The position numbers and the translations under genes were made by a program. The notes beneath the pieces were generated by a model that made no database searches, was not told the origin of the DNA, and saw only the letters and a program-made list of their open reading frames with translations. DNA of 64,000 nucleotides, from assembly GCA_016906335.1 (NCBI GenBank), contig JADEYG010000001.1, positions 992,001-1,056,000 of the forward strand, given 5' to 3'. This document shows, one piece after another, positions 13,247-61,039 of the stretch (position 1 is its first letter; the number at the start of each line of letters is the position of its first letter). The stretch is from Novakomyces olei. Taxonomy: Eukaryota; Ascomycota; Novakomycetes; Novakomycetales; Novakomycetaceae.

Positions 13247-14283
13247 ATGTCGAACGCCTCGTCCCCAACACAATTTTTTGACGCTTCGGAGACCTCACCA
13301 GTTCAGGGGGGAGGTAAGCGACGACGCAAAGGCATGGGACCGATTCCCTGCGATCTTTGCGACGCACGATTTTATCGCGCCAGCGAACTTTCGAGACACG
13401 AGCACACGCACAACAAGGTGCTAAAAGAAAGTTTACAGTTATGGAAAAAGAACGCAGAAAATGCCACAAACTACGACTTGGGCATTTCGATACTACAAAG
13501 GGCTACACAAAAGAAGCCACAGATATGCGAACCAGAGACGCATGATAACGAAAAGTTTGCCGAAAACGTTATCAAAGATCTTCTACATGGAAGTCCGTGC
13601 AGCTTTGCAAAGACGAACGTCCGCGAATTGGACAACGAAGTCCATGTTTCTAACTTTGTACTACAATTCTTTACATCAAAGACCGATGGAGTTGCGGCGT
13701 ACAACATTGTCCCGAGTGAGGATATGATGAGGCTACTTAAGCCTTTCAAAGAGCATCAAAATCTAGCTTCTCTTTGGCTGTCTGCTGCATCGCCAGCGCC
13801 TCTTATAACCGATGTTCATGCCGACAACATTCTTTTGGCCAACACAATTATGTGTCTTTCTGGCAAGAAACTTGTTTTACCTGGCCACCGACGGATGAGA
13901 ACTTACGTCTGTTTGGACCCAGACACCGTCGCCACGGGGATCTATTCTTACCACTAGCGATTCGCTCTCTGTGCGGCCTCAAGTTAACATTCTTGACTGC
14001 CGGGAAAGCAATGACAATGGAACCGGGGACGTTACATGCGGTAATGACCCTCGAGAACTCTATTATCACTGGGTACTCGTTTGCATACACTCATTCGCGT
14101 CTCAAGCGTCTAGCCGTGTGGGATGCTGAGAGTGCAAAAGGAACGGATTTGGAACTTCAAGTTGAGAACGAGCACCAGGAAGCAATTGAAGTTTACCGAG
14201 CCACTCTTCCTGCTTATTACAACGCGAAAAAGAAGTTTATTTATTCAGGCTTACAGTTGTTACGCCTCGGGAGGGGAGAGTAG
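13247..14283 (+). pseudogene. C2H2 finger + JmjC-like accessory gene of family C, broken
   Basis: Accessory gene between chromodomain and 3' LTR, homologous in layout to those of families A and G. It shows an N-terminal C2H2 finger (CDLCDARFYRASELSRHEHTH, C-x2-C-x12-H-x3-H) after a basic stretch. An HxD pair (VHAD) and the distal motif EPGTLHAV of the dioxygenase core are also present. The end again runs into the polypurine tract just before the LTR. It appears broken about once. Sequence is well diverged from the A and G versions, so the gene has been with this group for some time. Confidence 0.7.
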
Positions 14284-14661: not shown

Positions 14662-17600
14662 AAGTAAGTGATTCAACAGACGATGAAAACATAATTACAT
14701 CTGCCAAAAACGAGGACGTTCTGGAATTGGACATTACAGAAGTTGCCTCAACTGCAACCAAGATACCAGAAGATAATCAGGAATTTAAAGATGTATTTGG
14801 CGAGCAAGAACAATTGGAACTACCGCCACACCGCTCATACGATCACGAAATCGTATTAGAGAAAGATGCCAAGATCCCATTCGGACCAGTTTATGGAACT
14901 ATACCGAAAGAACAAGACTATCTACTGAAGTACTTGGAAGAAAACTTGCAATCAGGATTTATTCGAAAATCTAAAAGTCCTGCTGCATCACCTGTACTAT
15001 TTGTACCGAAGAAAGACGGTGACCTTAGACTCTGTGTCGACTACAGAGCTTTAAACAAAGTTACAGTAAAGAACCGTTATCTTTTGCCGCGCATTGATGG
15101 ACTTATCGATAAGTTAGCGCAGGCCACCCACTTTACTAAACTAGATTTGCGAGGTGCATACAACCTCATCAGAATCAAGAAAGGAGACGAATGGAAAATA
15201 GCATTTCGAACTCGCTATGGATTATTTGAATACCGCGTAATTACAAATGCACCAGCGACGTTTCAAAATTTAATGAATGACATGTTTCGAGATATATTAG
15301 ATGTCAAAGTTTTGGTTTATCTAGACGACATTCTAGTATATAGCAAGACCCTTGAGCAACACCTTCAGGATGTTCGCGAAGTACTTTATCGCTTACGACA
15401 ACACACTTTATATGTGAAACTAGAAAAATGTGAATTTCACAAAGCTACCGTTGAATTTCTAGGATATATCATATCAAAAGATGGATTGTCAATGGCAAAA
15501 TCGAAAACAGAGCCAATACAAAACTGGCCACAGCCAAAGAATGTCAAAGACGTGCAAATTCTTTTAGGTTTCTGCAACTACTATCGCCGCTTTATCCCGA
15601 ATTTCTCGAAAATTGTATTACCAATAACTGAGTTACTCAAGCAAAAACCCGCATTCGCTTGGACCGCCGCTCAGAGCGACGCTTTTAGCGACTTGAAAAA
15701 ATCATTTCTAAAAAATGTTATGCTTGATCATATTGATAACAATTTGCAATGTGTCATTGAAACAGACGCTTCAGACTTTGCTTTAGGCGCCTGTCTACGA
15801 CAACAAAGCAAAGACAAACGACCTATCGCCTTCATTAGTAGAAAGCTACTATCAGCAGAGCTAAATTACGACATTTACGACAAAGAACTTTTGTGTATTG
15901 TGTGGAGTTTACGCACATGGCGTCATTATTTACATGGCTCACCACATCCTATACTGATCTACAGTGATCACCAAAACCTACAAACGTTTACAACATCAAA
16001 AATACTCACCAGACGACAAGCCAGATGGGCTGAGATCTTAGCTGAGTTCGATCTTAACATTATTCATCGAAGAGGTCAATTAAACATACCTGCTGACGCA
16101 TTGAGCCGCCGCTCCGACTTAGCAGATACTACGGATATTGAATATCAGAAGATACGATTAAAACCACTGCTTAAACAATCGCAGTTTATCGCAGTAAACA
16201 CCGTTGAAGAAAGCAAAACATTTGTGCCACCCGAGAATCGACAAGAGATTCTAGCAGCGTGTCATGATCACCCGCTATCTGGTCATTTAGGAATCAATAA
16301 AACCATTGATCTCGTCACCAGAAATTACTTTTGGCAGGGAATTCACCGCGACGTAAAGGAATACGTACAAGGCTGCACTACTTGCACCCGAAACAAGGTC
16401 TCCAGACATCGCCCTTATGAACTGCTGGTACCACTCTACATTCCCGACCGCCCTTGGAAGTCTATTTCTATCGACTTTATTGTTAAACTGCCTATTTCTA
16501 AATCCTTTGACCGATTTTCAAAGATGGCTCACTTTATACCAACAGTCGAAACAATTACATCTTTCGATCTCACGCACATTTTCATCAACGAAATTATCCG
16601 CCTACATGGAATCCCAGAAAACATCGTATCGGATCGTGATCCACGATTTGTCAGCAAATTTTGGAATTCACTAACGCAACAACTTGGTGTTACACTACGA
16701 AAGTCAACCAGCCACCATCCCCAAACAGATGGCCAAACGGAACGACTAAATCAAACTTTGGAACAGTACATACGCTGTTATTCTAATTACCAACAAGACA
16801 ATTGGTCTGATTTGCTCCCTTTTGCCGAATTCGCTTACAATAATACTATAAGCGCGAGCACCAAACAAAGCCCATTTTTTACTTGCTACGGTTATCACCC
16901 AAGAAGCGTTTTTACACCACTGCAGACGCCGAATGAATCTGCTAACAAACTTGTTATGGATTGGAAAAACCACTTTAATTCTACACAATCTATACTCAAA
17001 CAATCAGTTCAAAGAATGAAAGATTTTTATGATCGCAAACGACTGGAAGCACCCAAATTCAACATTGGCGACTTAGTTTGGATACGACGAGAACACATTT
17101 TATCTTCAGGACCAAGCCCAAAGCTCGATCATGTTTTCCTCGGGCCTTTTCCCATTATAGCTACAGTTGGCCCAGCCGCTTATCGCATTGAATTACGATC
17201 CATCCACGCTGCAAGAAATGAGATAACACTAGTGGCCTTGAGAACGATTTGGTTCAATGCGTTGTCAATAATCTGACATGGTGAACGGGACGTTAGATCT
17301 TTGAGGAGATCTTCACACTCGATGTCGACCGTATCGTAGGCTGCTTCATGGAGAGCTGTTTGGCGAGTGTTAGCGTGCGCAAATCCATACGCAGTGTACA
17401 ATTTAAAACCTAGCCGATTGGGCTCCGCCAAAAAGCTACGTCCTCTCGACGAGCATGCGGATAACACGACAAACTGGACGTCGGTCCTTACACCAGCAGG
17501 GACTGTAACAGACGTACACATTGATCCCATCATGTTCGGAACAGTCGTCTACGGTGTTTTCGGAACAAAAATGATTCTAACATGGCCGCCCACACCAGAG

Positions 17601-17976
17601 AATCTTTCCTGGTTTGGACCAATGTCGACAAAATCATCAGTTTGCATTGCGCGATGCCATCATCTACTTGCGCGGCCTGAAGTATTATATTCTCTCGGAG
17701 AATAGGTCAATCACTTTTCCACCAGGCACAGTCCACGGTGTTATCGCAATCACCGACTCTGCGCTGATGGGATACAACTTTGCCGTACTCGACAAGGACA
17801 TTACGAGACTTATCGAATGGGACGCAAACTTCGCAAAGGGTAAGGCTGAATTGACACGCGATGCGGTTGAAGAACATCGTGTTTGTCTTCGGCATTACGA
17901 AAAGGTTTTTAAGTCTTCTTTCTCTTCTTTTTCTTTTGATTTCAACAAAGGACTTCGACTTTTGAGAGGGGAGTGA
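14662..17976 (+). mobile_element. family A chromovirus copy A2, rearranged remnant
   Basis: Starts inside the protease-to-RT spacer of a family A element, at the point where the C element entered. It runs through RT, RNase H and integrase (14727 to about 17195), then into a scrambled remnant of the C2H2/JmjC accessory gene that ends at the polypurine tract GAGAGGGGAG. Pol is very close to element A. It is broken in several ways and part of the accessory gene is turned round. The LTR that follows is not the A type but J. Fossil, but sequence similarity to A says recent. Confidence 0.8.
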
Positions 17977-18847: not shown

Positions 18848-19174
18848 TGTTATGGGTCACAGTTCTGTGCTGAGTAAGTCTGAATAGGTTTGGCCAGTAA
18901 CACGATGGCCGTGCCAGGGAGTCGGAGTAGGAGAAAGCAAATAGATTTAAACTCAATTAAACTCGTAACTTTAAAACTTCAGTAACTTCAATAACCGTCA
19001 AATCTCAATAGGCGGCGTTGAAGGGCCTATTTATAGACTTGACTACTGACTAAACTAACAAGTACTATAGAACACTATAGAACTTTCTACGAACCGTGAG
19101 CTCAAGTTAACGGAAATACCGCAACTGAACTCTATTAGCGTTGGAAAACGCTAATTAATGTCATGCCTATGACA
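18848..19174 (-). repeat. LTR L, copy 1
   Basis: 327 bp, read on the minus strand from TGTCATAGGCATG to CCATAACA, with TCTATAAATAGGCCC as TATA box. A second copy stands at 22052. It sits against the gag piece of H2; the left flank is not H2, so no target duplication is visible. Confidence 0.65.
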
Positions 19175-19616
19175 ATGAACGAATTGCTGGATTAGAATTG
19201 CTTCGTTAACAATTTCTAGATCCATCGATCTCAGTTTGAGCTGCGTTGCATATTGACTAATGCTTCTTGTTCCTTGAGTAAAAGTAACAAATTTGCTGTA
19301 AGCTCGAGGTAGGTAATCATTAGGAACAATACTGCGTTCCAGATGATTAAGCATTTGATTGGCTGTTAGGCCTGTATTGTCCCTGAGTTTTTCAGCATAA
19401 ATAGCAGCGCTGGAGTCAAGAAACATGCTGATCAAATCGATATCTGAAATGCTTATAGCGTTTGCTCCAGTTTTGACATATGCCAGCCATTTCACCATAG
19501 TATTTCTCCATGATTGAAATTCCCTATGAGTCATTGGATGGCCATTAAGCTTTGTAGGCTCGGGAAGTTTGAATTTGAAATCCATATTAAGTTATTTAAT
19601 AAATTTATATTAAGAC

Positions 19617-20282
19617 TTAAAATAGTGTATTAAAGTATGGTGGTGATTGTTTTCCTTCTTCCAAGTATTTTTTATAATTCGCTTCAATTTTGTTTGGATC
19701 CTCGCCCTTGAAAAGACGAATCCTAAATCGGTCCTCAACGATACTGTACAACAAATATTTCGTTTTCTTTTTATTGTGTAATTCTTTGATACGTTTAGCC
19801 ACCAAGCAATTATAAGTCTCTTCGTATTTCACTCTGGCAGCGGCCTTGCTCGTCCAATGGGCTTGCTTGTCAAAAATTTCCTCTTCGGTTAATGGTGGTC
19901 TGCTTGGAGCTTTGAGTGGCGTCGAAGGTGTCGGAAGAGGGGCCGGAATCGGGGTCGGAAGTGGTTTCGGAAGAGGTGTTGGAAGGGGTTTAGAAAGCGT
20001 TTCAATTTTCTTACGCTCCTTAAAAGCCTCTGAACGGCGAGCGTTTCTTTCTCTTCTCTTTGACAGCTGAAGAGTCAAGCTGGAAGAGGTTCGAACACTC
20101 TGGTCGGCAGGTCCAGACTCAGAGTTTTGTTTTCGCTCCTTGGATTCCGGGTATTGACGGCTATGTCCAGTCAACACCTTATCCTTAGGAGGATCGGTTT
20201 TCGCCTGGCGCAAAAGATTTGCAAAAGGCTCAGAGAAAACGTGTCGATAAATCCGTCGGCGTTGTCCAGACGGGGGAGTCAC
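19617..20282 (-). CDS. AUG-less leader frame (ORF0) of H2
   Basis: 221-codon open frame upstream of gag, lacking methionine throughout; GTG at 20282 aligns closely with a GTG in H. It is homologous along its length to the frame at 37450-38151: a basic start (RRRIYRHVFSEPFANLL), LTLQLSKRRERNARRSEA, a Pro-rich linker, and a helical C-terminal third from EEEIFDKQAHWTSKAAAR onward. Differences from H are mostly conservative (K/R, D/E, I/V, Y/F) and the Pro-rich linker varies most, as expected for a selected protein. No known family recognised. The stop lies about 30 nt before the gag ATG, in a different relative frame than in H. Confidence 0.6.
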   Translation of the reverse strand: MTPPSGQRRRIYRHVFSEPFANLLRQAKTDPPKDKVLTGHSRQYPESKERKQNSESGPADQSVRTSSSLTLQLSKRRERNARRSEAFKERKKIETLSKPLPTPLPKPLPTPIPAPLPTPSTPLKAPSRPPLTEEEIFDKQAHWTSKAAARVKYEETYNCLVAKRIKELHNKKKTKYLLYSIVEDRFRIRLFKGEDPNKIEANYKKYLEEGKQSPPYFNTLF

Positions 20283-20307
20283 TGTCTTGGTTAGCAGTGA
20301 AAAAATT

Positions 20308-20678
20308 TGTTAGGTTACAGAGGTACACTCACTGTTGTAACCTTATTTATTAAATAAATAAAAAAAATAGACTTGTTTCTAAACTATGGGATAGGTCCTC
20401 TATTTACAGACTTGCCAAGAGATAGGGTAGATATCCTATCTATGGCATGATCCAGTAAATGGCGTGATTGCCAAGAGTTTTTTATGCCAAGAGTTCTCAC
20501 GCCAAGAGATAACAAGAAGATAGCTTCCCAAAATAGATTCTTTAATGATGATTAGGGTTAGTTAGGGTTTAATTATTATTTGATAATCTTAAGTCATATT
20601 GGATTAATAATTATAATCTTTAATTAAAGTTTTCTATTTTGGGAACACTTTTTTTATTATTACACCTATTTTTTAACA
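20308..20678 (-). repeat. probable LTR of H2
   Basis: 371 bp, TGTTAGGTTACAG to TTTTTAACA. Its left part (ACTCACTGTTGTAAC) matches the family H LTR; the rest is diverged and lacks the 25-bp repeats of H. The limits rest on TG...CA ends and position beside the leader. Confidence 0.55.
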
Positions 20679-20927
20679 AAGGAGGCCGAATTGGCGGCCG
20701 CCAGGTCCAAGGAAGCGGCAAGGGCCAAGAAAGCAAGGGCGAAGGAGGCCGAATTGGCGGCCGCCAGGGCCAAGGAGATTGCCAGGGCAAAGGAAGCGGC
20801 AAGGGCGAAGGAGATCGCAAGGGCGAAGAAGGCCGCCAAAATTAGGATCGAGTTTGCAAAGGCTTGCGAAGGGTATGGGTTACTTAGGTTAGGGTTAAAC
20901 TCCTATTATATTGAGGGGCAGAGTTGA
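20679..20927 (+). other. Lys/Ala/Arg/Glu helical repeat frame, truncated
   Basis: Open frame cut at its left end by the H2 LTR. It repeats a roughly 5-residue theme (KEAAR, AKEIAR, AKKAA), a single-alpha-helix or coiled-coil composition, then ends GYGLLRLGLNSYYIEGQS. It could be the tail of a host or element gene that H2 landed in, or low-complexity DNA. Not recognised. Confidence 0.3.
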
Positions 20928-21211
20928 GGTTGAAAACGCCAGAATTGTTAAGAATGGAGGTTGGGTGTTGTTGAAAGTGTTGACACAACGTCTGTGTCCG
21001 GTTCAGTGTCATCACGGTCAGTAAACACGCTGAATTTCCAGCAGGGGGTCGTCAGGAAAACTTGGTGTTACTAAACTCATACTAATAAAATTAGTTAATA
21101 ATAAAAGGCTCTGAGGAATATGTTTTACACTTCGCAATATTAAAATCTACAACTTGTAGTGTCCACGTGTTTAAGAGAAATAGTCTTGGCTTTTAGCTGT
21201 AGCTCCCTTAA

Positions 21212-21611
21212 TGTTACGATTTAATTTATTTCTATATTGTTATTGCGTCTTCGATAGCACCGACGCTATTGAAGCGCTATATTATTATTTGTTTGTTGTC
21301 TTTATTTAATATTGAATATTTATTTAAATATTTACTTATTATTTATTATTTATTGACTATTATTGTTCTGACTGCTTTTACTTGTTAGTTTGTTTAATCG
21401 TTTAAGTAGCTAGTGTTTCTAGAATATTCTACGTAGCGAGGATATAAATAGAGGTCCTGCTTCTACTTTTCTCGCTACGTGTAATCGAACTTTGGGGAGA
21501 CCCAATCTTTTAAACCCAGTTCTATCTCTTAATTTCATCATAGTCCTAGAGCCGGCGTGAAATCCGGCAATTGGGTTCTCCTTTAGGCTTTCGCCTTCTA
21601 CAACCATAACA
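21212..21611 (+). repeat. solo LTR, family C
   Basis: 400 bp, TGTTACGATTT to ACCATAACA, flanked on both sides by CTTAA (target duplication). It differs from the C LTR at 14284 by small changes and an AT-rich length difference. Confidence 0.88.
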
Positions 21612-21898
21612 CTTAACCTTTACCTAGTGGACCCTTATCGAAAGGCAACGTGCTATCTGCCGCCTAAGGGGATTACTCGCCGCCGTGGCTAGACTCAAGC
21701 CGCTAGTTACCTAGTTGCGGGCCGACCCGTAACAACTGGAAAGCATTATTAGAGACCGTGTCACAATTTTGTCTCTGATTAAAACTCCAAATTTGGGGAA
21801 AGAATTCGAAACGTTCCCATTAATTGAACTAAAAAATAGGTATTATTAAGCAATGTCTTTAGAATCCAATATAACAGTCCTATCCAAATATTTTATTC

Positions 21899-22051
21899 GG
21901 ATCAAGCTCCTAAGCTGCTCAAAGCGGGAATATATCTTAAACTGCATGGGGCAGAACATTTCACTTCTGGTACAGGAATACACCAACAAAACGGCAAAGC
22001 GGAGCAAAATATAAGGTCGGTAAATAACATTATACGATTCCTAATGCTACG
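21899..22051 (+). mobile_element. Ty1/Copia-like integrase scrap
   Basis: Short frame with IYLKLHGAEHFTSGTG then IHQQNGKAEQNIRSVNNI, the catalytic-glutamate neighbourhood typical of Copia-type integrases (QNGxAE followed by an N-rich helix). No other part of such an element is recognisable nearby. Old and broken; L2 has inserted in it. The remainder of 21612-21898 shows nothing I can name. Confidence 0.5.
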
Positions 22052-22355
22052 TGTTATGAGTTCCAGTTCTGTGCTGAGTAACACGATGGCCGTGCCAGGG
22101 AGTCGGAGTAGGAGAAAGCAAATAGATTTAAACTCAATTAAACTCGTAACTTTAAAACTTCAGTAACTTCAATAACCGTCAAATCTCAATAGGCGGCGTT
22201 GAAGGGCCTATTTATAGACTTGACTACTGACTAAACTAACAAGTACTATAGAACACTATAGAACTTTCTACGAACCGTGAGCTCAAGTTAACGGAAATAC
22301 CGCAACTGAACTCTATTAGCGTTGGAAAACGCTAATTAATGTCATGCCTATGACA
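22052..22355 (-). repeat. solo LTR L, copy 2
   Basis: 304 bp, same LTR as at 18848, flanked by CTACG on both sides (target duplication). It differs from copy 1 mainly by an internal length change near its 3' end. Confidence 0.85.
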
Positions 22356-22751
22356 CTACGCGCTGAACTTCACTAGAGTTATGGTGCGACGCTAGTCTTG
22401 TGGCCGCTCTTTTATTTAATTCTACTATGCGCTATGAGATGTGAGTAGCGATTACCATCCCCTACCGTGCAGTCTTCTACAGCCAGCCTATTCTAAGTCA
22501 CACACTGCCGTTTGGATCCGATTGCATTGCCTATCGTGTACTATATATGAGAAAAGTCTCTTCTCAGAAGTCGGATATAAGGCAATCTACCTACGACTAG
22601 TAAACATGACTCTCGATGTTAGGGGGTGACTCAATACAAAGTAATCTTAAGTCGGCCAAGATCACACGTTGGCCTTGACAGGGAGTAACAAAGGATAGGC
22701 AGATAGAAGAACTAATCTCAAGACACTTATATTAAGCGGAACCTTGGTTGT
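22356..22751. other. unassigned stretch between L2 and element G
   Basis: About 400 bp. Near 22617 it reads TGTTAGGGGGTGACTC, similar to the start of the family A LTR as written at 25243, so it may include an old LTR edge. No coding signal. Confidence 0.4.
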
Positions 22752-22992
22752 TGTAACGCCCCGAACCCAGTAGAAGAACTCCTCGTCTTATACTTGGGCT
22801 CGGCTCGTTACTTGCCGAAGATCCCACTCTACGAAACTATTAAAGTAACTAACTTATTGCAGAAGTGCTAGAGTCTGCGCTCCAAGCGCTACTCTAAGCA
22901 ACTTCCTACAATACAACTAAATAAACTAACTAACTAAACTACGAAGTTGCTTACTCAAGTGCTCCCAGCACCTTTCTAAGCAACCCCTGACA
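22752..22992 (-). repeat. 3' LTR of G (LTR M)
   Basis: 241 bp. Read on the minus strand it runs TGTCAGGGGTTGC to GGGGCGTTACA, directly after the purine tract GGAGTGGGAG. A diverged possible relative is K at 18391. Confidence 0.75.
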
Positions 22993-23997
22993 TTACTCCC
23001 ACTCCAAGACAGTAAGTCCCGATAACACTCTTTTCGCTGTCCCTGGTAGATCCGTCCCGTAGACCTCTCTGTAAAACTCCACCATAGTCCGGTGTTCTTG
23101 TATCACTACGCTTCTGATCCCTGGTCTCTTCTGGGCTAACTTGGCTTCCCAGTCGACCACTCGCTGAAGGCATTCACAGTCCTTCGCGGCATAGTTGTAT
23201 CCAAGTAACGAGCTGTCCGAGACAGCGATAACCGCGTGAAGCGTTCCCGGTTCCATATTTAACATCATCCCTTTCCTCAACACACTGTAATGGAGGCTCT
23301 TATTAAGCGTAGGGAGGTGTCTTGGTATGACCCGACCCTGAGTAGAGCGATGATATTCCTCGTAAGTTCTTAGATTCACTTCTGTGGGAGGCCACATCAG
23401 CCCTACCTTCGTTCCTGATATCCCAAATATAACACTGCCGTACGCCACAGGGTCAATGTGGACGTTTGTAAATGTCCCGGCAGGTGTCATGGTCGACGAC
23501 CAATTCGTACTGTTCCCTTTGTGCTCTGGCAATGGCTCTAGCAGCAGCAAAGTTCCTTCCTCTGTCGGCGCAATGTTATAAGCCGCCAGTGGATTTGCGT
23601 GTCGGTACGCCCAATCTGCGAAAAACCTGCTCACTTTGTAATCCTCGTCCTCGCAACCCGTAATAGGACTGATCAAGTTGCACCCTTCATTCTTCCACAA
23701 GTCGCAGATAATGTGTTCGATAGTGATCCCTAGGTAAGGGGCCGTCAGCGGAGCCCTAGCTCCTGACTGGAAACGTTGGAGGGCCCTCAAAGTTGACTCC
23801 CCAGCCGTGAAGTTATCCGACTTCTTCGCGTTCTCTCGAAATTCTTGAATCGGCAAAACCGTCCCTTCTTTATGGCACGTTGTCACATGCCTTCGCACGT
23901 CTTGAATGCGCGATATCCTTAGTCCACATATAGCGCATTCGTTAGCACCCGAGTTGCGGGGCTTGCGCTTATTCCCAACAGCTTCATTCTCGCTCAT
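22993..23997 (-). CDS. C2H2 finger + JmjC-like dioxygenase, accessory gene of G
   Basis: Whole-looking 334-residue frame. An N-terminal basic stretch (KRKPR) and one C2H2 finger at Cys21, Cys24, His37, His42 (C-x2-C-x12-H-x4-H) precede a helical middle (about 50-130). The dioxygenase-like core follows: NWSSTMTPAGTFTNVHIDP with an HxD pair (His180, Asp182), GTKVGLMWPP with Lys197, and EPGTLHAV with His254. This H-x-D...K...H order is the Fe(II)/2-oxoglutarate site of JmjC-type cupins, which hydroxylate or demethylate proteins, often histones. The stop falls in the polypurine tract next to the LTR. It shares the same motifs with the A gene at low overall identity. Part of a retroelement, not a host gene; substrate unknown. 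Confidence 0.75.
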   Translation of the reverse strand: MSENEAVGNKRKPRNSGANECAICGLRISRIQDVRRHVTTCHKEGTVLPIQEFRENAKKSDNFTAGESTLRALQRFQSGARAPLTAPYLGITIEHIICDLWKNEGCNLISPITGCEDEDYKVSRFFADWAYRHANPLAAYNIAPTEEGTLLLLEPLPEHKGNSTNWSSTMTPAGTFTNVHIDPVAYGSVIFGISGTKVGLMWPPTEVNLRTYEEYHRSTQGRVIPRHLPTLNKSLHYSVLRKGMMLNMEPGTLHAVIAVSDSSLLGYNYAAKDCECLQRVVDWEAKLAQKRPGIRSVVIQEHRTMVEFYREVYGTDLPGTAKRVLSGLTVLEWE

Positions 23998-24470
23998 CTT
24001 GGGTTGCTTCGCAGGTTGCTCGTAGCCAACCTTTGTGCAAACTTTTTCTTCCCTTAACTCAATAAAATAGTATATAACTATTATTACTTAACTCCAATTT
24101 AAGTAATTCTGTAGACAACTTTTTCTAAGTTGCTTAAATATGCGCTTCGAGCACACTTTGTAGCAATAGTTCACTTCTCCCATACCATTGGTATAGCTTG
24201 ATCCCAATAGTACGTACTAACACAAAATATTCAAAACCAACAAATCTTGATAGAACTTTATCATAATTAATGAATCCTTCATTTAAACTGATCATATCTG
24301 CCTTAAGCTTGCTCCCCCTCTCCGAGAGCAGTGATAATAATCCAAATAATAACGAGCTACTGAAATCGTGACAGTAAGTACAAAAACAATAACAATTTCG
24401 TGTTGAAGACGCAAAAAAATAGCGAGCCACAGTTGAATGGGCTTCAAAATCAGATTTTTTCTTTTTAATA
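23998..24470. other. unassigned stretch within G
   Basis: About 470 bp between the accessory gene start and recognisable RNase H. Integrase and chromodomain would be expected here. The sequence has an open minus-strand reading but no motif I know. Confidence 0.4.
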
Positions 24471-25242
24471 TTTAATCTTTTTGTAATCTTAAGGTCTAAC
24501 TCCGACAAAACCTCGTGCCAACGGGCTTGTCTTCTCGTAAGTTGCTTTGTAGTAGTAAAGCGTTGCAGATTCTGATGATCTGTATAAACCAATACCGTGT
24601 GCGGTGAACCTTGCACGTACGGTCTCCATGTCTTAAATGCCCATACAATGGCTAGCAACTCCTTGTCGTGTATGTCATAATTTATCTCTGCCGGTGACAA
24701 CTTCCGACTTATAAAAGCAACTGGACGCTTCTGTCCTTCGTTGTCCTCTTGTAACAAAGCCGCTCCCAATGCATAATCAGATGCATCGGTCTCCATGAAG
24801 CATTGCTTTGAGTTGTCAATGTGAGCTAGTATTACATCGTTCAGGAAGGCCTTCTTTAAGTTGCTTAAAGCTGTGCTCTGAGCGTCAGTCCAAGCAAACT
24901 TTGTATCCTTTCGCAACAATCTTGTTATTGGCAGCACTGTCTCTGAAAATCGAGGTATAAAACGTCGGTAATAGTTACAGAAACCCAATAAAACCTGTAC
25001 ATCCTTCACGCAGGTTGGTGTTGGCCAATCTTGTATTGGTTTTGTCTTGTCATCTGCCATTGACAATCCTTTAGCAGATATGATATAACCCAAAAAACTC
25101 GACACTTTCACGATGAAACTCACATTTCTCCAACTTTGCGTATAGCTCATTTTCGCGTAGTCTCTGTAGCACTTCCTTAACATCCTCGTGATGTCTCTCC
25201 ATACTTGTGCTGTAAACCAGTATGTCATCCAAATAGACTAGT

Positions 25243-25593
25243 TGTTAGGGGGTGACCCTGGGTGATGGACTAGCCCGATATCGCGCGGGCGGAGGCAGGA
25301 AGATGGGACGAACCAGAGTACTGTCGGTGACTATTGCAACAAGGAGACTGAGGAGCCTACAGTCGCGAAGTATAGGCGTAACCCAAATTGATTTCACACA
25401 AGGGACAAGTAGAAGACAAGCCTCTATTTATAAGCTTGACCCTTGTGGTTAAACTATGAGAAAACTATTCTAGAACTATCTAAGCCACATTAAACAAATA
25501 ACTAAAAGAAATTAAAGTAATAAACTGGAAAGTTGAATAAGACTCGTCGCTATATCAACCGTTCATAGCGGCCTAAATAGCGACTCCCTAACA
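25243..25593 (-). repeat. 3' LTR of element A
   Basis: 351 bp with inverted ends TGTTAGGG and CCCTAACA. On the minus strand it follows the purine tract TTTTGAGAGGGGAGTAA. Confidence 0.95.
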
Positions 25594-26583
25594 TTACTCC
25601 CCTCTCAAAAGTCGAAGTCCTTTGTTGAAATCAAAAGAAAAAGAAGAGAAAGAAGACTTAAAAACCTTTTCGTAATGCCGAAGACAAACACGATGTTCTT
25701 CAACCGCATCGCGTGTCAATTCAGCCTTACCCTTTGCGAAGTTTGCGTCCCATTCGATAAGTCTCGTAATGTCCTTGTCGAGTACGGCAAAGTTGTATCC
25801 CATCAGCGCAGAGTCGGTGATTGCGATAACACCGTGGAGAGTGCCTGGTGGAAACGTGATTGACCTATTCTCCGAGAGAATATAATACTTCAGGCCGCGC
25901 AAGTAGATGATGGCATCGCGCAATGCAAACTGATGATTTTGTCGATGCCTTGGTCCAAACCAGGAAAGATTCTCTGGTGTGGGCGGCCATGTTAGAATCA
26001 TTTTTGTTCCGAAAACACCGTAGACAACTGTCCCGAACATGATGGGATCAATGTGCACGTCTGTTACAGTCCCTGCTGGTGTAAGGACCGACGTCCAGTT
26101 TGTCGTGTTATCCGCATGCTCGTCAAGAGGACGTAGCTTTTTGGCGGAGCCCAATCGGCTAGGTTTTAAATTGTACACCGCGTATGGGTTTGCGCCCCGA
26201 TCCATCCACGCTGCAAGAAATGAGATAACACTAGTGGCCTTGAGAACGATTTGGTTCGATGCGTTGTCAATAATCTGACATGGTGAACGGGACGTTAGAT
26301 CCTTGAGGAGATCTTCACACTCGATGTCGACCGTATCGTAGGCTGCTTCATGGAGAGCTGTTTGGCGAGTGCTTAGCGTGCGCAAACACGTCAGCACACT
26401 TTCGTAATTTGTCGATTTTCCCCCGCAACGATAAAACTCCTTGATGCACGCAGACATTCTTTTGTCATGGACTGCAATCTGATGCCGTTTCCTGTCATAT
26501 TGTTCGTAGAACCTTGTTCCACAATCTAAACATTCTAGCGGTCCTTGGTTTCTGGGGCGTCTGGTGCTTTTTTCTCGAGGCAT
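25594..26583 (-). CDS. C2H2 finger + JmjC-like dioxygenase, accessory gene of A
   Basis: 333-codon frame if begun at 26595 (MNLAMPREK); the Met at 26583 (MPREKSTRRP) may also serve. Counting from 26595: basic N-terminus, C2H2 finger at Cys22, Cys25, His38, His43, helical middle, then TPAGTVTDVHIDP with His181 and Asp183, GTKMILTWPPTPENL with Lys198 and PPGTLHGV with His254, the metal and 2-oxoglutarate ligands expected of a JmjC-like cupin. The C-terminus reads LRLLRGE, whose codons are the polypurine tract itself, and the stop touches the LTR. It lies downstream of pol in the same strand, so it needs a spliced, internally started or reinitiated message. A role in modifying chromatin or the element's own proteins is inference. 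Confidence 0.8.
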   Translation of the reverse strand: MPREKSTRRPRNQGPLECLDCGTRFYEQYDRKRHQIAVHDKRMSACIKEFYRCGGKSTNYESVLTCLRTLSTRQTALHEAAYDTVDIECEDLLKDLTSRSPCQIIDNASNQIVLKATSVISFLAAWMDRGANPYAVYNLKPSRLGSAKKLRPLDEHADNTTNWTSVLTPAGTVTDVHIDPIMFGTVVYGVFGTKMILTWPPTPENLSWFGPRHRQNHQFALRDAIIYLRGLKYYILSENRSITFPPGTLHGVIAITDSALMGYNFAVLDKDITRLIEWDANFAKGKAELTRDAVEEHRVCLRHYEKVFKSSFSSFSFDFNKGLRLLRGE

Positions 26584-27261
26584 CGCTAAGTTCACTGCTG
26601 AGGGCTGGTAGAGTTGCGTTTGCTGAAAATATTTTCAGGCCAGTTAATTTATATAGAACGGTTATCAATCTTAAGTAATCGTCCGTATATAATAAGTCGT
26701 ACCGGTAATATATATATAACGGTATATATAATAATATAAGTAACCAATATAATAACAACACATATAATAATATTATGTGTGGATAATAAGGTCGCTAAGT
26801 TGTCCGCTCTGGGCGTCATATTTAGCGTCACAATAAATAATCTTTTGCGATAATAAACGGTCGCTAAGTTGCCCGCTCTGGGCGCCATATTTAGCGTCGT
26901 ATGAAATAAATAATAAAGTGCGATAATAAGCGTGTATACGTGATACATAGCACAAATATTGCAGAGCATTACTCCCCCTTCAATAATAGGTGGGTTCCTT
27001 AATAGAAAAATAATAAATAAATAGAATCAATAATTAGTTCAGAAAATAGTTATTTGGGCAAGATAGATTCGAATAGATAATAAAGAATAATATAAAAATC
27101 AAGCTGTATGAGGTTGAGGCATACAATAACAAGGGTACCGGAGTTGAATCAGTGTCCCATTTCGTAGTAAAACAATAAAAATGTTGGTGTAATAGAAGTT
27201 TTTATCCCTGAATTAAAATCAATAAGTGATAAAAAGCATAATTAGAGAATAATTGGTAGTT

Positions 27262-30200
27262 TCAAAGGTTGCGATTGTGATATTCGCGTAAAGCGTCTTG
27301 TGCATTAACCAAGTTTTCGTATGGTTCCCAGGTACGGTCTTCTGGTCCATAGTTTTTCCAATGGACGTAATATTGGCGGTTCTTTCCACGTCCACGATGA
27401 CTGACGATATGATCAACTTCATATTCTTCTGTGTCTTTGAGTATATCGGGCACAATTTGTTCTGTCGATTCACGATTAAATCGGTCAGGTTTGTGTCTTG
27501 AGAGCAGTGTTTCATGAAAAACATTGTGGATTTTAATATGATCTGGTAATTCAATGCGATAAGCGGCTGGGCCAACTGTAGCTATAATGGGAAAAGGTCC
27601 GAGAAAAACATGATCGAGCTTTGGGCTTGGTCTTGATGATAAAATGTGTTCTCTTCGTATCCAAACTAAGTCGCCAATGGTGAATTTGGGTGCTTCCAGT
27701 CGTTTGCGATCATAAAAATCTTTCATTCTTTGAACTGATTGTTTGATATAGATTGTGTAGAATTAAAGTGGTTTTCCAATCCATAGCAAGTTTGTTAGCA
27801 GATTCATTCGGCGTCTGCAGTGGTGTAAAAGCGCTTCTTGGGTGATAACCGTAGCAAGTAAAAAATGGGCTTTGTTTGGTGCTCGCGCTTATAGTATTGT
27901 TGTAAGCGAATTCGGCAAAAGGGAGCAAATCAGACCAATTGTCTTGTTGGTAATTAGAATAACAGCGTATGTACTGTTCCAAAGTTTGATTTAGTCGTTC
28001 CGTTTGGCCATCTGTTTGGGGATGGTGGCTGGTTGACTTTCGTAGTGTAACGCCAAGTTGTTGCGTTAGTGAATTCCAAAATTTGCTAACAAATCGTGTA
28101 TCGCGATCCGATACGATGTCTTCTGGGATTCCATGTAGGCGGATAATTTCCTTGATAAAAATGTGTGTGAGATCGAAAGATGTAATTGTTTCGACTGTTG
28201 GTATAAAGTGAGCCATCTTTGAAAATCGGTCTATCACAACAAAAATTGAATCAAAGGATTTAGAAATAGGCAGTTTAACAATAAAGTCAATAGAAATAGA
28301 CTTCCAAGGGCGGTCGGGAACGTAGAGTGGTACTAGCAGTCCATAAGGGCGATGTCTGGGGACCTTGTTTCGGGTGCAAGTAGTGCAGCCTTGTACGTAT
28401 TTCTTTACGTCGCGGTGAATTCCCTGCCAAAAGTAATTTCTGGTGACAAGTTCAATGGTTTTATTGATTCCTAAATGACCAGATAGCGGGTGATCATGAC
28501 ACGCTGCTAGAATCTCTTGTCGATTCTCGGGTGGCACAAATGTTTTGCCTTCTTCAACGGTGTTTACTGCGATAAACTGCGATTGTTTAAGCAGTGGTTT
28601 CAATTGTATCTTTTGATATTCAATATCCGTAGTATCTGCTAAGTCGGAGCGGCGGCTCAATGCGTCAGCAGGTATGTTTAATTGACCTCTTCGATAAATA
28701 ATGTTAAAATCGAACTCAGCTAAGATCTCAGCCCATCTGGCTTGTCGTCTGGTGAGTATTTTCGATGTTGTAAACGTTTGTAGGTTTTGGTGATCACTGT
28801 AGATCAGTATAGGATGTGGTGAGCCATGTAAATAATGACGCCATGTGCGTAAACTCCACACGATACACAAAAGTTCTTTGTCGTAAATGTCGTAATTTAG
28901 CTCTGCTGGTAGTAGCTTTCTACTAATGAAGGCGATAGGTCGTTTGTCTTTGCTTTGTTGTCGTAGACAGGCGCCTAAAGCAAAGTCTGAAGCGTCTGTT
29001 TCAATGACACATTGCAAATTGTTATCAATATGATCAAGCATAACATTTTTTAGAAATGATTTCTTCAAGTCGCTAAAAGCGTCGCTCTGAGCGGCGGTCC
29101 AAGCGAATGCGGTTTTTTGCTTGAGTAACTCAGTTATTGGTAATACAATTTTCGAGAAATTCGGGATAAAGCGGCGATAGTAGTTGCAGAAACCTAAAAG
29201 AATTTGCACGTCTTTGACATTCTTTGGCTGTGGCCAGTTTTGTATTGGCTCTGTTTTCGATTTTGCCATTGACAGTCCATCTTTTGATATGATATATCCT
29301 AGAAATTCAACAGTAGCTTTGTGAAATTCACATTTTTCTAGTTTCACATATAAAGTGTGTTGTCGTAAGCGATAAAGTACTTCGCGAACATCCTGAAGGT
29401 GTTGCTCAAGGGTCTTGCTATATACTAGAATGTCGTCTAGATAAACCAAAACTTTGACATCTAATATATCTCGAAATATGTCATTCATTAAATTTTGAAA
29501 CGTCGCTGGTGCATTTGTAAGTCCAAATGGCATTACGCGATATTCAAATAATCCATAGCGAGTACGAAATGCTGTTTTCCATTCGTCTCCTTTCTTAATT
29601 CTGATGAGGTTGTATGCACCTCGCAAATCTAGTTTAGTGAAGTAGATGGCCTGCGCTAACTTATCAATAAGTCCATCAATGCGCGGCAAAGGATAACGGT
29701 TCTTCACTGTAACTTTGTTTAAAGCTCTGTAGTCGACACAGAGTCTAAGGTCACCGTCTTTCTTCGGTGCAAATAGTACAGGTGATGCAGCTGGACTTTT
29801 AGATTTTCGAATAAATCCTGATTGCAAGTTTTCTTCCAAGTACTTTAGTAGATAGTCTTGTTCTTTCGGTGTAGTTCCATAAACTGGTCCGAATGGGATC
29901 TTGGCATCTTTCTCTAGTACGATTTCGTGATCGTATGAGCGGTGTGGCGGTAGTTCCAATTGTTCTTGCTCGCCAAATACATCTTTAAATTCCTGATACT
30001 CTTCTGGTATCTTGGTTGCAGTTGAGGTAACTTCTGTAATGTCCAATTCCAGAACGTCCTCGTTTTTGGCAGATGTAATTATGTTTTCATCGTCTGTTGA
30101 ATCACTTACTTCCTCAGTGTGAGGTTCAAATTCGGTGTTCATTGATGTTTCCGTGAAGGTATTACTGGTCGTCTCCCATGCAATAGTACCTTCTTTCCAA

Positions 30201-31594
30201 TTAATTATGGGGTTGTGCTTTCTTAGCCAATCTACTCCCAGTAACATGTTATTTGTTCCGATCTCGGCAACTAAAAATCTTGTATCCGTCTCGTATCCAT
30301 TGATACTCAGGTTCAAACTGTCGGTTCGCTTAATTGCTTGACGTGAACGTATAGTTCCCCCGTCAGCCACGCGTACAGTAATAGGATTCTTTAATGGAGC
30401 AGTTTCGATCTTCAACTTATCTGCTAGCTTCCAGTGCATAAAGCTTGAGCTCGCGCCGGAGTCAACTAAAGCCGTAAAACTCTCATTTCCTATTTTCACA
30501 TTTACCTCCACTCGTTGGGGCATAGTGTCTTCATTCTCACTGAATTCATCATGTTCAGACTGGTAGACCATCGTCTCCTCCAAACTTAAAGCGTTATTTT
30601 GACGTTCTCTCGTCATATCTCGTGCCGGAAATGTGCTTCGGCAATTCTTGGCATAGTGTCCAAACTTATGGCAGCGTTGGCACTGTATCTTGGGCATGTT
30701 TATGCGGCCCTTTGTATACTTGTCTGATGGCTCCGTGTTGTGTCCGCTAAAACCTCTGTTCTTAGCGACTGATTGAGCGACCATATTCTGTTGTCCGCTA
30801 TTATGTCCGTTCCAAGCGGCATTCTTTGCGGGCTGAGCTTGTACCATGTCGACGTCCATAGGCACAGCTCCCCTATCTCTCGATACTGGTTGTTGCGGTC
30901 TATGGGTTAGGAAACGACCGTTGTTCCCCTTTCTTTCTGATAGTCTGTTGTCAATTTTAATACACTCGTCAATGAGTTTGTCAATGTCGTTTGGCTCATC
31001 CATTCTGGCCAATTCGTCTTTCATTTCGTCTTTTAACCCTTCGTAAAACTGTGATATCAATGGATCATTGTTCCAATTGATCCACGCACGCAAGCGGTTA
31101 AATTCTGCAGCATACTGTGCAACTGATCGTCTCTGTCGTAGTTCACGTATCTGTTTCTGCGCTGTTCTCTGAATATTGCGGTCTCCGAACATTCGTTCTA
31201 ACTGCGTACAATATTCGTCAAAGTCGTCTAGGATCATACTGTTGTCTGTCTTCACATGTGGTTCAAACCATCTAAATGCAGAGCCTCTCAAATAGGATGC
31301 AGCAAACATAACTTGTTGTCTCTCTGTAGTAAATCTCGTCGGTTGACTGTCGATGTACATTTTGATTTGCGTAAGATACTCCGTGGTCTTCGCTCGTTCT
31401 CCGTGGTACAGTGGCGGTGTAGCCAGCTTTGGTTCCCGGTAATTCGAAGTGTGTCCACTGGTTCTTGAACTCAAATCCATCACATGACCTCGTAACTGAA
31501 GGTTTTCCTGTTCCAGGTTTTGCATTCTAGAACTCATATCCCTAAGGATTTGTTGAATCGTAGCCGACATCTCGTTGTTTGGATCGACTTCCAT
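27262..31594 (-). CDS. gag-pol region of element A with chromodomain
   Basis: Single long gag-pol reading with about one break near its end. Domains in order: coiled-coil start with SSRMQNLEQENLQLRG; capsid part with RWFEPHVK; zinc knuckle CQRCHKFGHYAKNC; protease with LVDSGASSSFMH; RT with [10 protein letters not shown]; RNase H with ETDASDFALGA; integrase with the HHCC start (CTTCTRNK) and DRFSKMAHF; GPY/F region (FLGPFPIIATVGPAAYRIEL); and a chromodomain (YYVHWKNYGPEDRTWEPYE). This is the standard chromovirus order. The chromodomain is thought to steer integration to methylated H3K9 chromatin, which fits insertion into other elements here. Confidence 0.9.
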
Positions 31595-31612
31595 CTCGGT
31601 GCCACGTCGCGG

Positions 31613-31623
31613 GTGTGAAATAC
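31613..31623 (-). promoter_or_regulatory. primer site of element A, self-priming type
   Basis: Directly inside the 5' LTR the minus strand reads GTATTTCACACCCGCG. Its ATTTCACAC (31613-31621) is complementary to GTGTGAAAT in the LTR (31772-31780), which starts about 33 nt after the TATA box TATAAATA, where the RNA should begin. No tRNA-like TGG start is present at the LTR edge. This is the Tf1/sushi arrangement. Confidence 0.6.
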
Positions 31624-31974
31624 TGTTAGGGGGTGACCCTGGGTGATGGACTAGCCCGATATCGCGCGGGCGGAGGCAGGAAGATGGGACGAACCAGAGT
31701 ACTGTCGGTGACTATTGCAACAAGGAGACTGAGGAGCCTACAGTCGCGAAGTATAGGCGTAACCCAAATTGATTTCACACAAGGGACAAGTAGAAGACAA
31801 GCCTCTATTTATAAGCTTGACCCTTGTGGTTAAACTATGAGAAAACTATTCTAGAACTATCTAAGCCACATTAAACAAATAACTAAAAGAAATTAAAGTA
31901 ATAAACTGGAAAGTTGAATAAGACTCGTCGCTATATCAACCGTTCATAGCGGCCTAAATAGCGACTCCCTAACA
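31624..31974 (-). repeat. 5' LTR of element A
   Basis: 351 bp, the same as the copy at 25243 by eye. TATA box TTATAAATAGAGG on the minus strand near 31808-31815. Confidence 0.95.
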
Positions 31975-32886
31975 CTAGTACTTTGACATCCAGTAAGTCT
32001 CTAAATATATCGTTCATAAAATTCTGAAACGTTGCAGGCGCGTTTGTCAATCCAAACGGCATCACTCTGTATTCAAACAGTCCATAGCGTGTTCTGAACG
32101 CTGTCTTCCATTCATCGCCTCTCTTTATGCGAATCAAATTGTAAGCTCCTCGTAAATCAAGCTTAGTGAACACCTTCGCGTGTGCCAGCTTATCCAACAG
32201 TCCGTCAATTCGGGGTAGTGGATAACGATTTTTCACAGTTACCTTGTTGAGGGCTCTGTAGTCCACACACAGGCGCATGTCTCCTGACTTCTTCATGACA
32301 AATATGATGGGTGAAGCAGCAGGTGACTTTGATCTTTTAATAAAGCCTTTTGCCAAATTTTCTTGTATGTAGTTGAATAGATATTCCTGTTCCTTTGGTG
32401 TTGTTCCGTAAACAGGTCCAAAAGGAATCTTGGCATCTTTCTCCAACGTAATGTCATGATCATAGCTTCGATGTTTTGGCAAATTCCCACTCTGTTTGTC
32501 ATCAAACACATCATTGAAGTCCTTTTATGCTGCTGGTATGTTGCAGCTCGTCGGATCCTGACTCTCCTCTGACACTTGGCGTGCCTCAATGAGATATAAC
32601 GTTTCACTTCGGCCTTTGCTTGCATTGGTGCTTTGAGCGCGGTCCCAAGCAATAGTGCCAATTCTCCAATTCACTGTAGGGTTGTATGTGGATAGCCAAT
32701 CCATTTGTTAAGTGAGGATTACTCACTGTTGTAACAATATAAATTAGACCTAGCTAAGAGATCTATCTTTCAGACTATGGGAAGTTGGGTCCTTTTATAG
32801 ACTTTTTGTGAAGCAGATAGGACGGAGATAGGAAGGAAATAGGAAGGAAATAATGAGTAATGATGATGAATCATTGATGAGTAATG

Positions 32887-32961
32887 ATGACTCATTAATG
32901 AGTAATGATGATGAATCATTGATGAGTAATGATGACTCATTGATGAGTAATGATGACTCAT
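32887..32961. promoter_or_regulatory. three Gcn4/AP-1-type sites in the H LTR U3
   Basis: ATGACTCAT, the palindromic bZIP consensus bound by Gcn4-like factors, occurs at 32887-32895, 32932-32940 and 32953-32961, roughly 80-160 bp upstream of the TATA box. The 5' LTR has the same three at 38357, 38402 and 38423. They suggest control by amino-acid starvation or stress signals. Confidence 0.6.
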
Positions 32962-32970
32962 TGATGAGTA

Positions 32971-33120
32971 ATCAATCTTGATTAGATTTGATTAGATCAA
33001 TCTTGATTAGATTTGATTAGATCAATCTTGATTAGATTTGATTAGATCAATCTTGATTAGATTTGATTAGATCAATCTTGATTAGATTTGATTAGATCAA
33101 TCTTGATTAGATTTGATTAG
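32971..33120. repeat. 25-bp tandem repeat, six units
   Basis: Six contiguous units beginning ATCAATCTTGATTAG in the U3 of the H LTR, with a partial seventh. A matching block in the other LTR spans 38441-38590 with slight variation. There are no spacers. Confidence 0.9.
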
Positions 33121-33121
33121 A

Positions 33122-37405: not shown

Positions 37406-37449
37406 TTCTATTGAATGAAACCAATCGAACAGTGTTTTTAATTATTAAA

Positions 37450-38151
37450 CTAATAAAGAGTATTCAAAAATCCTGGTTGCTGTTTTCCGCTCTCCAAGTG
37501 TTTGTGATAATCTCTTTCAACTTTATCCGGATCTTCTCCTTTGTAAAGTCGAACCTTAAATTCGTCCTCCACAATATTGTCCAGCAAGTATTTAGTTTTA
37601 TTTCTTTTGTGTAGCTCTTGTATTCTGTCAGCTACCAATTTGTTGTAGGTCTCTTCGTACTTCAGCCTAGCTGCTGCCTTGCTCGTCCAATGAGCCTGCT
37701 TTCGGAAAATTTCTTCCTCGGTTATAGGCGTTCGAATGACTGGAGTTGGAGCCTGAGCCTCGACTAAGGCTGGTGGTGCGACGGCAATTGGCGTTGGAGC
37801 TTTGTTGACTTTGGGGGGCTTTGGAAAAGGTCGCAATGCCGCGTCAACAGCTCTCTGAAGTCCACTTTGTTTTCGCTCTTTGAATGCCTCCGATCGGCGA
37901 GCGTTTCTTTGTCTTCTCTTTGACAATTGTAAAGTCAAGTTGTCAGAAGATGTTGCAGGAGACGGTGTACACTGATCGGTTGATCCAGATTCAGTGACGT
38001 AGTCCTCCACTACAGGAATATGATGTGGGCGGTCTTGTCCTGCCTGCACCTTGTTCCTGGGTGGATCTGTCTTTGCCTGACGCAAAAGATTTGCGAAAGG
38101 CTCAGAATAGATTCTCCTGTAAATCCGTCGGTTTTTTCCAGACGGTTGCAC
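37450..38151 (-). CDS. AUG-less leader frame (ORF0) of element H
   Basis: About 233 codons between the 5' LTR and gag; the open frame extends further, to 38196 and into the LTR. It has no methionine codon, and no ATG exists in any frame from the TATA box to the gag ATG at 37405. A GTG at 38149-38151 has a close counterpart in H2. Product: basic start (NRRIYRRIYSEPFANLL), LTLQLSKRRQRNARRSEA, a Pro/Ala-rich linker and a charged helical end starting EEEIFRKQAHWTSKAAAR. It has a homologue in H2 with mostly conservative changes. No known domain recognised; a nucleic-acid-binding or gag-like accessory role is a guess. It must start at a non-AUG codon or be reached by splicing, if it is translated at all. 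Confidence 0.6.
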   Translation of the reverse strand: MQPSGKNRRIYRRIYSEPFANLLRQAKTDPPRNKVQAGQDRPHHIPVVEDYVTESGSTDQCTPSPATSSDNLTLQLSKRRQRNARRSEAFKERKQSGLQRAVDAALRPFPKPPKVNKAPTPIAVAPPALVEAQAPTPVIRTPITEEEIFRKQAHWTSKAAARLKYEETYNKLVADRIQELHKRNKTKYLLDNIVEDEFKVRLYKGEDPDKVERDYHKHLESGKQQPGFLNTLY

Positions 38152-38175
38152 TGACGATGTTAGCAGTGAAAAATA

Positions 38176-38610
38176 TGTTAAGTGAGGATTACTCACTGTT
38201 GTAACAATATAAATTAGACCTAGCTAAGAGATCTATCTTTCAGACTATGGGAAGTTGGGTCCTTTTATAGACTTTTTGTGAAGCAGATAGGACGGAGATA
38301 GGAAGGAAATAGGAAGGAAATAATGAGTAATGATGATGAATCATTGATGAGTAATGATGACTCATTGATGAGTAATGATGATGAATCATTGATGAGTAAT
38401 GATGACTCATTGATGAGTAATGATGACTCATTGATGAGTAATCAATCTTGATTAGATTTGATTAGATCAATCTTGATTAGATTTGATTAGATCAATCTTG
38501 ATTAGATTTGATTAGATCAATCTTGATTAGATTTTATTAGATCAATCTTGATTAGATTTGATTAGATCAATCTTGATTAGATTTGATTAGAACAATCTTG
38601 ATTCCTAACA
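38176..38610 (-). repeat. 5' LTR of element H
   Basis: 435 bp, TGTTAGGAATC to CACTTAACA on the minus strand. It differs from the 3' LTR at a handful of positions, mostly in the tandem repeats. No clear tRNA primer site was identified beyond its edge. Confidence 0.95.
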
Positions 38611-46725: not shown

Positions 46726-46889
46726 GTTGTTGTTGATCCGGAACGCAGAGCGAAAATTCTTGTTTTGCATCCGCAAATTACTTTATATTACTTAGATAGT
46801 TTTATTGCCGAAAGCGCACTTATATAGCAGTCTAGTAGCTAACGTGGTTTTCATAGGCGCGGAGACCTCGCCCTAGAAAGGGGGGATAG

Positions 46890-54516: not shown

Positions 54517-54680
54517 GTTGTTGTTGATCCGGAACGCAGAGCGAAAATTCTTGTTTTGCATCCGCAAATTACTTTATATTACTTAGATAGTTTTATTGCC
54601 GAAAGCGCACTTATATAGCAGTCTAGTAGCTAACGTGGTTTTCATAGGCGCGGAGACCTCGCCCTAGAAAGGGGGGATAG

Positions 54681-60776: not shown

Positions 60777-61039
60777 CGCGTTCAGAACTGTCTTTGCGAA
60801 CGCGACTGGATACTATTTATCTTCGCGTTTTGCCTCTTTACCCCTCTGCAACAAAACGCGAACACCCCTTTTATTTTCCCATGCTATTCTATATGTTTAT
60901 TTACGCGTTTACTGAGGAGAAAATATTATTGTGACACGCGGCAATTGAAATTAGCGTTTATTTTGTTCGCCTTTCTATTTTTATGGAATATTTTATGTTT
61001 TGCGGGCGCGGGGACCTCGCCCAAGGGAGGGGGGGATAC

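Follow-up and report, generated by a model that had tools for sequence, protein, structure and literature searches.

The locus and its two C2H2-JmjC genes

The window studied here is a stretch of 64,000 nucleotides from the ascomycete Novakomyces olei (GenBank assembly GCA_016906335.1, contig JADEYG010000001.1, positions 992,001 to 1,056,000), and all coordinates are those of the window unless a contig is named. It carries, among Ty3 retrotransposons, two intact genes, P0001 and P0002, each encoding a C2H2 zinc finger followed by a JmjC-like dioxygenase core. The original prediction, made from the sequence alone, had reported these two whole frames; both are present at the positions it gave, but the strand had to be corrected to minus, the plus strand containing many stops at both places. 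The open frame of P0002 spans 25597-26595 (minus strand, 333 amino acids), with its first ATG at 26583. The two proteins share 35% identity over 327 aligned positions, and the expected finger and HxD...K...H core were found in each. A broken third version at 13247-14280 (plus strand) and a scrambled one at 17099-17973 were likewise recovered, the former as a frame-broken copy of lineage III and the latter as pieces of lineage I, one of them inverted (lineages are described below).

The element that carries P0002 is complete in outline (Table 1), and the gene lies between the chromodomain and the 3' long terminal repeat (LTR), as had been proposed for all versions. That position could not be read directly for P0001: neither an LTR pair nor any integrase or chromodomain match was found in the 5.3 kb examined around it (20001-25300). 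A copy 97% identical to it (L022, at 1.42 Mb of contig C3) is bounded by LTRs and has the order gag-pol-chromodomain-JmjC-LTR.

Table 1. Positions of the C2H2-JmjC genes and of associated element features in the window (RT, reverse transcriptase)
Feature	Position	Strand	Remarks
C2H2-JmjC gene, lineage I (P0002)	25597..26583	-	frame intact from first ATG; stop codon 25594-25596 abuts 3' LTR
C2H2-JmjC gene, lineage II (P0001)	22996..23997	-	intact frame, 334 amino acids
C2H2 finger of P0002	26467..26532	-	C18, C21, H34, H39; basic stretch precedes
JmjC core of P0002	25774..26088	-	T174, H177xD179, K194, H250
Lineage III copy, frame-broken	13247..14280	+	two pieces, 95.7% identical to intact copy L025
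Lineage I copy, scrambled	17099..17973	mixed	pieces, one inverted
3' LTR, lineage I element	25243..25593	-	TGTTA...TAACA; target duplication ACTAG
5' LTR, lineage I element	31624..31974	-	99.7% identical to 3' LTR
gag-RT-RNase H-integrase frame, lineage I element	27713..31711	-	1333 amino acids; protease not probed
Integrase C-terminus and chromodomain, lineage I element	27262..27762	-	not in frame with the remaining pol in this copy; residues of the aromatic cage retained
AT-rich spacer, lineage I element	26584..27261	-	chromodomain stop to JmjC ATG, ~0.7 kb
RT/RNase H remnant upstream of P0001	24134..25237	-	no integrase or chromodomain match here

The gene is repeated in seven lineages of young Ty3 elements

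The genome (14.3 Mb in 15 contigs) was searched with P0002. This gave at least 47 matching places (E<=1e-3), of which one is a host gene. The element copies sort into seven lineages (I-VII) with at least 21 stop-free full-length frames (I, 2; II, 2; III, 4; IV, 6, one of them with an offset indel pair; V, 3; VI, 1; VII, 3). The matches are many, and in all seven lineages the frame and every motif residue are retained; these frames are thus not due to chance.

Between LTR pairs, the order gag, RT, RNase H, integrase, chromodomain was read in lineages I-V (protease was not probed); no LTR pair was assigned in lineage VI, and lineage VII was examined as a partial copy. This gene order, together with TG...CA LTRs and a short target duplication, is that of Ty3 chromoviruses, and the chromodomain cage residues are kept in all seven carriers. 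Among the loci fetched, the LTR pairs of thirteen elements are 98.8-100% identical and the JmjC frame is often letter-identical in sister copies, and the insertions are therefore young. Target duplications of 5 bp, read by eye, fit in 8 of the 13 elements; of the other five, three show no match and two, lineage V elements on contig C2, have flanks exchanged between copies. These two (L036 and L037, ~1.071-1.090 Mb) lie in opposite orientation with the flanks CACTG/GTCTT exchanged, which is the expected result of an inversion by recombination between them.

The protein resembles KDM2/KDM7 enzymes

The C2H2 finger and the basic stretch are found in all seven lineages, in which the iron triad HxD...H and the 2-oxoglutarate-binding lysine are invariant at 24-40% identity. 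Structure comparison with Foldseek indicated that the predicted fold is a double-stranded beta-helix of JmjC type. The best fold match and the best JmjC profile match were both of KDM2/KDM7 type, to which the protein is closer, by sequence and fold, than to the other JmjC types compared. With KDM2/KDM7 proteins (JHD1, PHF8, PHF2) and with Epe1 it shares the core T-x-x-HxD, a lysine 17 residues past the first histidine and a distal histidine; the C-terminal helices align with those of KDM2/KDM7 too. It differs from KDM2/KDM7 in that (i) it is borne by a retrotransposon, (ii) a C2H2 finger replaces the PHD or CXXC finger beside the JmjC domain and (iii) it measures ~330-370 amino acids from the likely ATG, with 13-15% identity to the solved members listed. 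No CXXC match was obtained, and the only PHD signal was a sub-threshold PHD_P300 match in one of the seven lineages. The Pfam JmjC model PF02373 gave no match above cut-off in the seven members tested, the family being too divergent for this model; its six matches in the genome include no element copy. Some host genes are labelled here KDM4-, KDM5- and JMJD6-like, which we take them to be. No TET/JBP-type core was among the matches listed, which does not exclude one. Taken together, these data bear out the JmjC-like dioxygenase originally proposed: the element gene encodes a C2H2-JmjC protein most like the chromatin-acting KDM2/KDM7 enzymes.

Two other views of this protein were weighed. It might hydroxylate or demethylate a non-histone substrate (RNA, Gag or some other host protein), a mode of action known from FIH/JMJD5-type JmjC enzymes and from the AlkB that orchid Ty3 elements carry; we consider this unlikely, since KDM2/7 comes out ahead of the other compared types in both sequence and fold, and a nuclear location is suggested by the basic stretch and finger. 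Alternatively, the JmjC fold might act without catalysis, as a scaffold competing for HP1 or nucleosomes. A fold can persist without activity, a non-catalytic role has been debated for Epe1 and the protein evolves fast, but the cofactor residues are all invariant across the seven lineages despite their divergence, and a mere binder is thus a very improbable reading.

No relatives of P0002, or of the seven-row alignment, were found among 5.8 billion proteins by a word-based search, which would miss distant ones, and none were found in viral contigs. The pol of the same element has at least 8000 relatives in the protein database; as these include eukaryotic ones, eukaryotes are covered by that database. 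Because the gene changes fast and such a search misses distant relatives, its restriction to this host is not shown. Homologues in other elements, for which the original prediction had proposed a search, exist in seven lineages of this genome, and in no other organism in the searches made.

The gene was inherited with the element under constraint

The pol and JmjC trees share the pairs I+II, III+V and IV+VI, with VII apart (the pol row of VII is partial), and the JmjC gene has therefore travelled with the element. The median end branch of the seven carriers is 0.22 for pol and 0.99 for JmjC: the JmjC gene changes four to five times faster than pol. Synonymous sites are saturated between lineages, including P0001 versus P0002, for which the codon maximum-likelihood omega of 0.034 (end of the GY fit; 0.064 was also logged) is unreliable. 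The ratio of nonsynonymous to synonymous substitution rates (dN/dS) was therefore read from close copies, in 18 comparison rows at 15 distinct places, with shared references, so that pairs are not independent. It is 0.17 and 0.18 in the two best-informed pairs (lineage II, 333 codons; lineage III, 295 codons). Eight distinct pairs span at least 183 codons, and five of these lie at 0.14-0.23. Values of at most 0.23 were obtained at 7 of the 15 places: four in lineage II (the window copy, L028, L027 and the copy at 1.7316 Mb of C7), two in lineage III (L029 and the first piece of the window copy) and one short scrambled lineage I piece. When the same changes were placed at random, for all 18 rows, the excess of synonymous changes was significant (p<=0.021) at 6 of the 15 places; an earlier placement test had used six hand-picked pairs, five of them with low dN/dS.

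Other comparisons weigh against purifying selection or speak for it weakly. The three remaining pairs of at least 183 codons gave 0.39, 0.92 (an indel case) and a count of two changes only. Place by place, the C7 copy of lineage I has a dN/dS of 0.71 (5 nonsynonymous against 2 synonymous changes); the ratio is 0.43 and 0.74 in scrambled lineage I pieces, 0.44 in a lineage II comparison of 52 codons, 0.48 in the second piece of the lineage III window copy and 0.39 in lineage VII. The 0.92, for L030/L039 of lineage IV, stems from an offset indel pair, the other count giving no substitution there, and L026 of lineage III has no synonymous and two nonsynonymous changes. The synonymous excess is not significant at 9 of the 15 places, most of them with few changes or broken pieces.

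Retroelements sometimes catch host fragments, and the gene might accordingly be a functionless passenger of host origin. This explanation was rejected on selection and tree congruence: a passenger is scarcely credible given seven lineages, congruent trees, low dN/dS in the best-informed pairs and the number of intact frames. The long retention claimed for the gene is upheld by the congruent trees and by the best-informed close pairs, in which dN/dS lies clearly below 1; with a structural match to 2-oxoglutarate dioxygenases, a dN/dS that is not near 1 and homologues in seven lineages, neither observation named beforehand as contradicting the prediction was made.

The gene marks one clade of chromoviruses

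To relate the gene to its carriers, a piece covering the integrase end and the chromodomain was used as a genome probe. It found 91 places, of which 78 were used and the 13 weakest left out, and these were compared with 49 JmjC places (46 of the 47 P0002 matches, the host gene being excluded, plus three from further searches). A same-strand JmjC match lies at most 1.6 kb downstream at 21 of 24 near-full-length chromodomain places of at least 52% identity and at 8 of 11 partial ones; none of the 43 places below 52% has one nearby. The 52% cut was chosen after the list was seen, and no identity in that list falls between 48% and 52%.

Three full-length places are exceptions: two belong to an eighth lineage (VIII), and one is a lineage I copy on C7. 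In the C7 copy, the JmjC pieces are found 7.6 kb downstream, and another element's chromodomain intervenes (not read base by base). The two lineage VIII copies agree at 97.5% for ~740 bases beyond the chromodomain, with no JmjC gene there. In this lineage (L050/L048), a long AT-rich microsatellite region follows the chromodomain, in a place without JmjC.

The tree of the integrase-chromodomain region places lineage VIII on the first branch next to the carriers, with weak support (69/88); it is probably the JmjC-free sister lineage of these seven. Six carriers form a single clade with 100% support against two window controls and 33 database relatives (taken from 114 usable of 120 listed), which may or may not have a JmjC gene. 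As the gene is present in the seven carriers and absent from the first branch, one gain explains the pattern. Most likely, therefore, the JmjC gene was gained once by a Ty3 chromovirus clade and then inherited vertically; the gain predates the split of at least seven lineages.

Position in the element and expression signals

Stops and 0.2-0.7 kb of sequence lie between pol and JmjC, and the JmjC frame reaches or crosses the purine-rich tract preceding the 3' LTR. In lineages I, II and III its stop codon stands directly before the TG of the LTR; in IV the frame continues into the LTR, and in V it ends 11 bases short. In all five lineages tested, a purine occupies position -3 of the JmjC ATG. 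No splice donor-like GTRNGT occurs in LTR or leader of these five and an acceptor-like site occurs in one only, which does not exclude splicing. Our guess would be a separate JmjC transcript starting within the AT-rich spacer. Leaders are very short in L022, L025, L031, L036 and the lineage I element of the window, with the gag ATG 30-54 bases past the 5' LTR.

Repeated short motifs in noncoding parts, of the kind recognised by VANC proteins, looked promising by eye and were ruled out because controls scored too. They are strong in lineage IV only (p<=0.005 at both word lengths), lineages II (p 0.035) and V (p 0.005) scoring at one word length each, and both JmjC-free controls reach p<=0.025 at both word lengths; the motifs are thus not specific to carriers.

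The JmjC protein might instead work with the chromodomain integrase to alter or mark target nucleosomes, enabling integration or its tolerance and not transcription. The chromodomain does adjoin in the same element, and Ty3 elements are clustered in a few internal regions and contig ends (27 of ~143 hundred-kb bins). However, elements with a chromodomain and no JmjC gene occupy the same clusters, and the JmjC frame is separate, unfused to integrase, in the copies examined. Remodelling of integration sites is thus a distinctly unlikely function, and we return to an effect on transcription below.

Other elements in the window

Three small antisense frames (46270-46782, 54061-54573 and 60345-60812, all minus strand; 170, 170 and 155 amino acids) lie past the chromodomain of plus-strand Ty3 elements and share a Cys-rich motif; they may represent another type of accessory gene, encoded on the strand opposite to the element. 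Two further minus-strand frames, 37450-38223 and 19617-20309, are related (69% at the nucleotide level). The former lies at the 5' end of the Ty3 element 32703-38618, and the latter inside a 3.5-kb unit (18896-22355) flanked by identical 279-bp repeats, perhaps a non-autonomous element. The LTR 32703-33121 of a JmjC-free Ty3 element contains 13 copies of TAATCAA, counting both strands, far above shuffled sequences. The nearest solved relative of the L4 gene is PDB 6ywe, presumably a Neurospora mitoribosome, which points to a fungus, probably an ascomycete, as host.

A proposed anti-silencing role

The host genome encodes one Pre-SET/SET protein with a chromo match in the same frame, which we take to be Clr4-like, one chromo-shadow protein and one Piwi-domain protein; no DNA methyltransferase was found in it. 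With these silencing genes present, we lean, by a modest margin over even chances, towards the JmjC protein being an anti-silencing factor owned by the element, like a cut-down Epe1. The clade would have acquired the gene for a nuclear, Fe(II)- and 2-oxoglutarate-dependent JmjC protein of KDM2/KDM7 (JHD1) type with one C2H2 finger and a basic stretch. The integrase chromodomain would take new copies to chromatin methylated at histone H3 lysine 9 (H3K9), where silencing would follow. The finger, the basic stretch or both may direct the protein to element chromatin, and the dioxygenase would there remove or oxidise a methyl mark, H3K9 methylation most likely and H3K36 methylation next. The element could then be transcribed despite host silencing of the Clr4/HP1/RNA interference type. 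The fast change outside the core fits a conflict with the host or changing targets.

Little is known of how retrotransposons escape histone-based silencing. In the present case, a JmjC gene has persisted across at least seven lineages in a clade of young Ty3 elements, and a probable sister lineage lacks it. The idea of reading and erasing can thus be put to a direct test, both biochemically and in fission yeast, where heterochromatin uses parts of the same kind.

Comparison with known systems

To our knowledge, the usual gene set of fungal chromoviruses has no JmjC gene. No retrotransposon-borne JmjC gene was named in the titles and abstract starts searched, a scope outside which most subscription papers and bioRxiv preprints fall. 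It is a possibility, at slightly under even chances, that this is the first retrotransposon with its own histone demethylase: an element that would read a host mark through its chromodomain and erase it through a zinc-finger-aimed JmjC protein, in a host with histone methylation and RNA interference and no DNA methylation, the fast non-core change reflecting an arms race.

Fungal chromoviruses such as MAGGY have, as here, a Ty3 pol with an integrase chromodomain (PMC3605345). The model for the proposed role is the JmjC protein Epe1 of fission yeast, a fungus without DNA methylation, where it counteracts H3K9 methylation (PMC7613290). Fungal DNA transposons (KDZ, hAT, EnSpm, Helitron and others) likewise carry 2-oxoglutarate dioxygenases, of the TET/JBP type, thought to counter silencing, and the survey that describes them reports no retrotransposon carrying them; those systems concern DNA transposons and DNA methyl marks, whereas here an LTR retrotransposon carries a JmjC gene in a host in which no DNA methyltransferase was found (PMC12730594). 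Closer in element type, orchid Ty3/Gypsy elements also have an added 2-oxoglutarate dioxygenase frame; it encodes an AlkB m6A demethylase, with an RNA substrate, and is described as a recent gain in Phalaenopsis, in contrast to a JmjC gene gained before at least seven lineages split (PMC9289625). VANC, the anti-silencing protein encoded by VANDAL elements, shares the role proposed here; VANDALs, however, are DNA transposons in which VANC recognises their own short motifs, whereas the motif pattern here is not carrier-specific (PMC5735166). In the papers considered here, the other counter-measures borne by elements either have DNA methylation or RNA as their target or come from DNA transposons. 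Mobile elements with dioxygenases directed against silencing are thus already known; JmjC adds a class to those taken up by mobile elements, and what is new is this enzyme class, its pairing with a chromodomain and the unusual depth of its retention.

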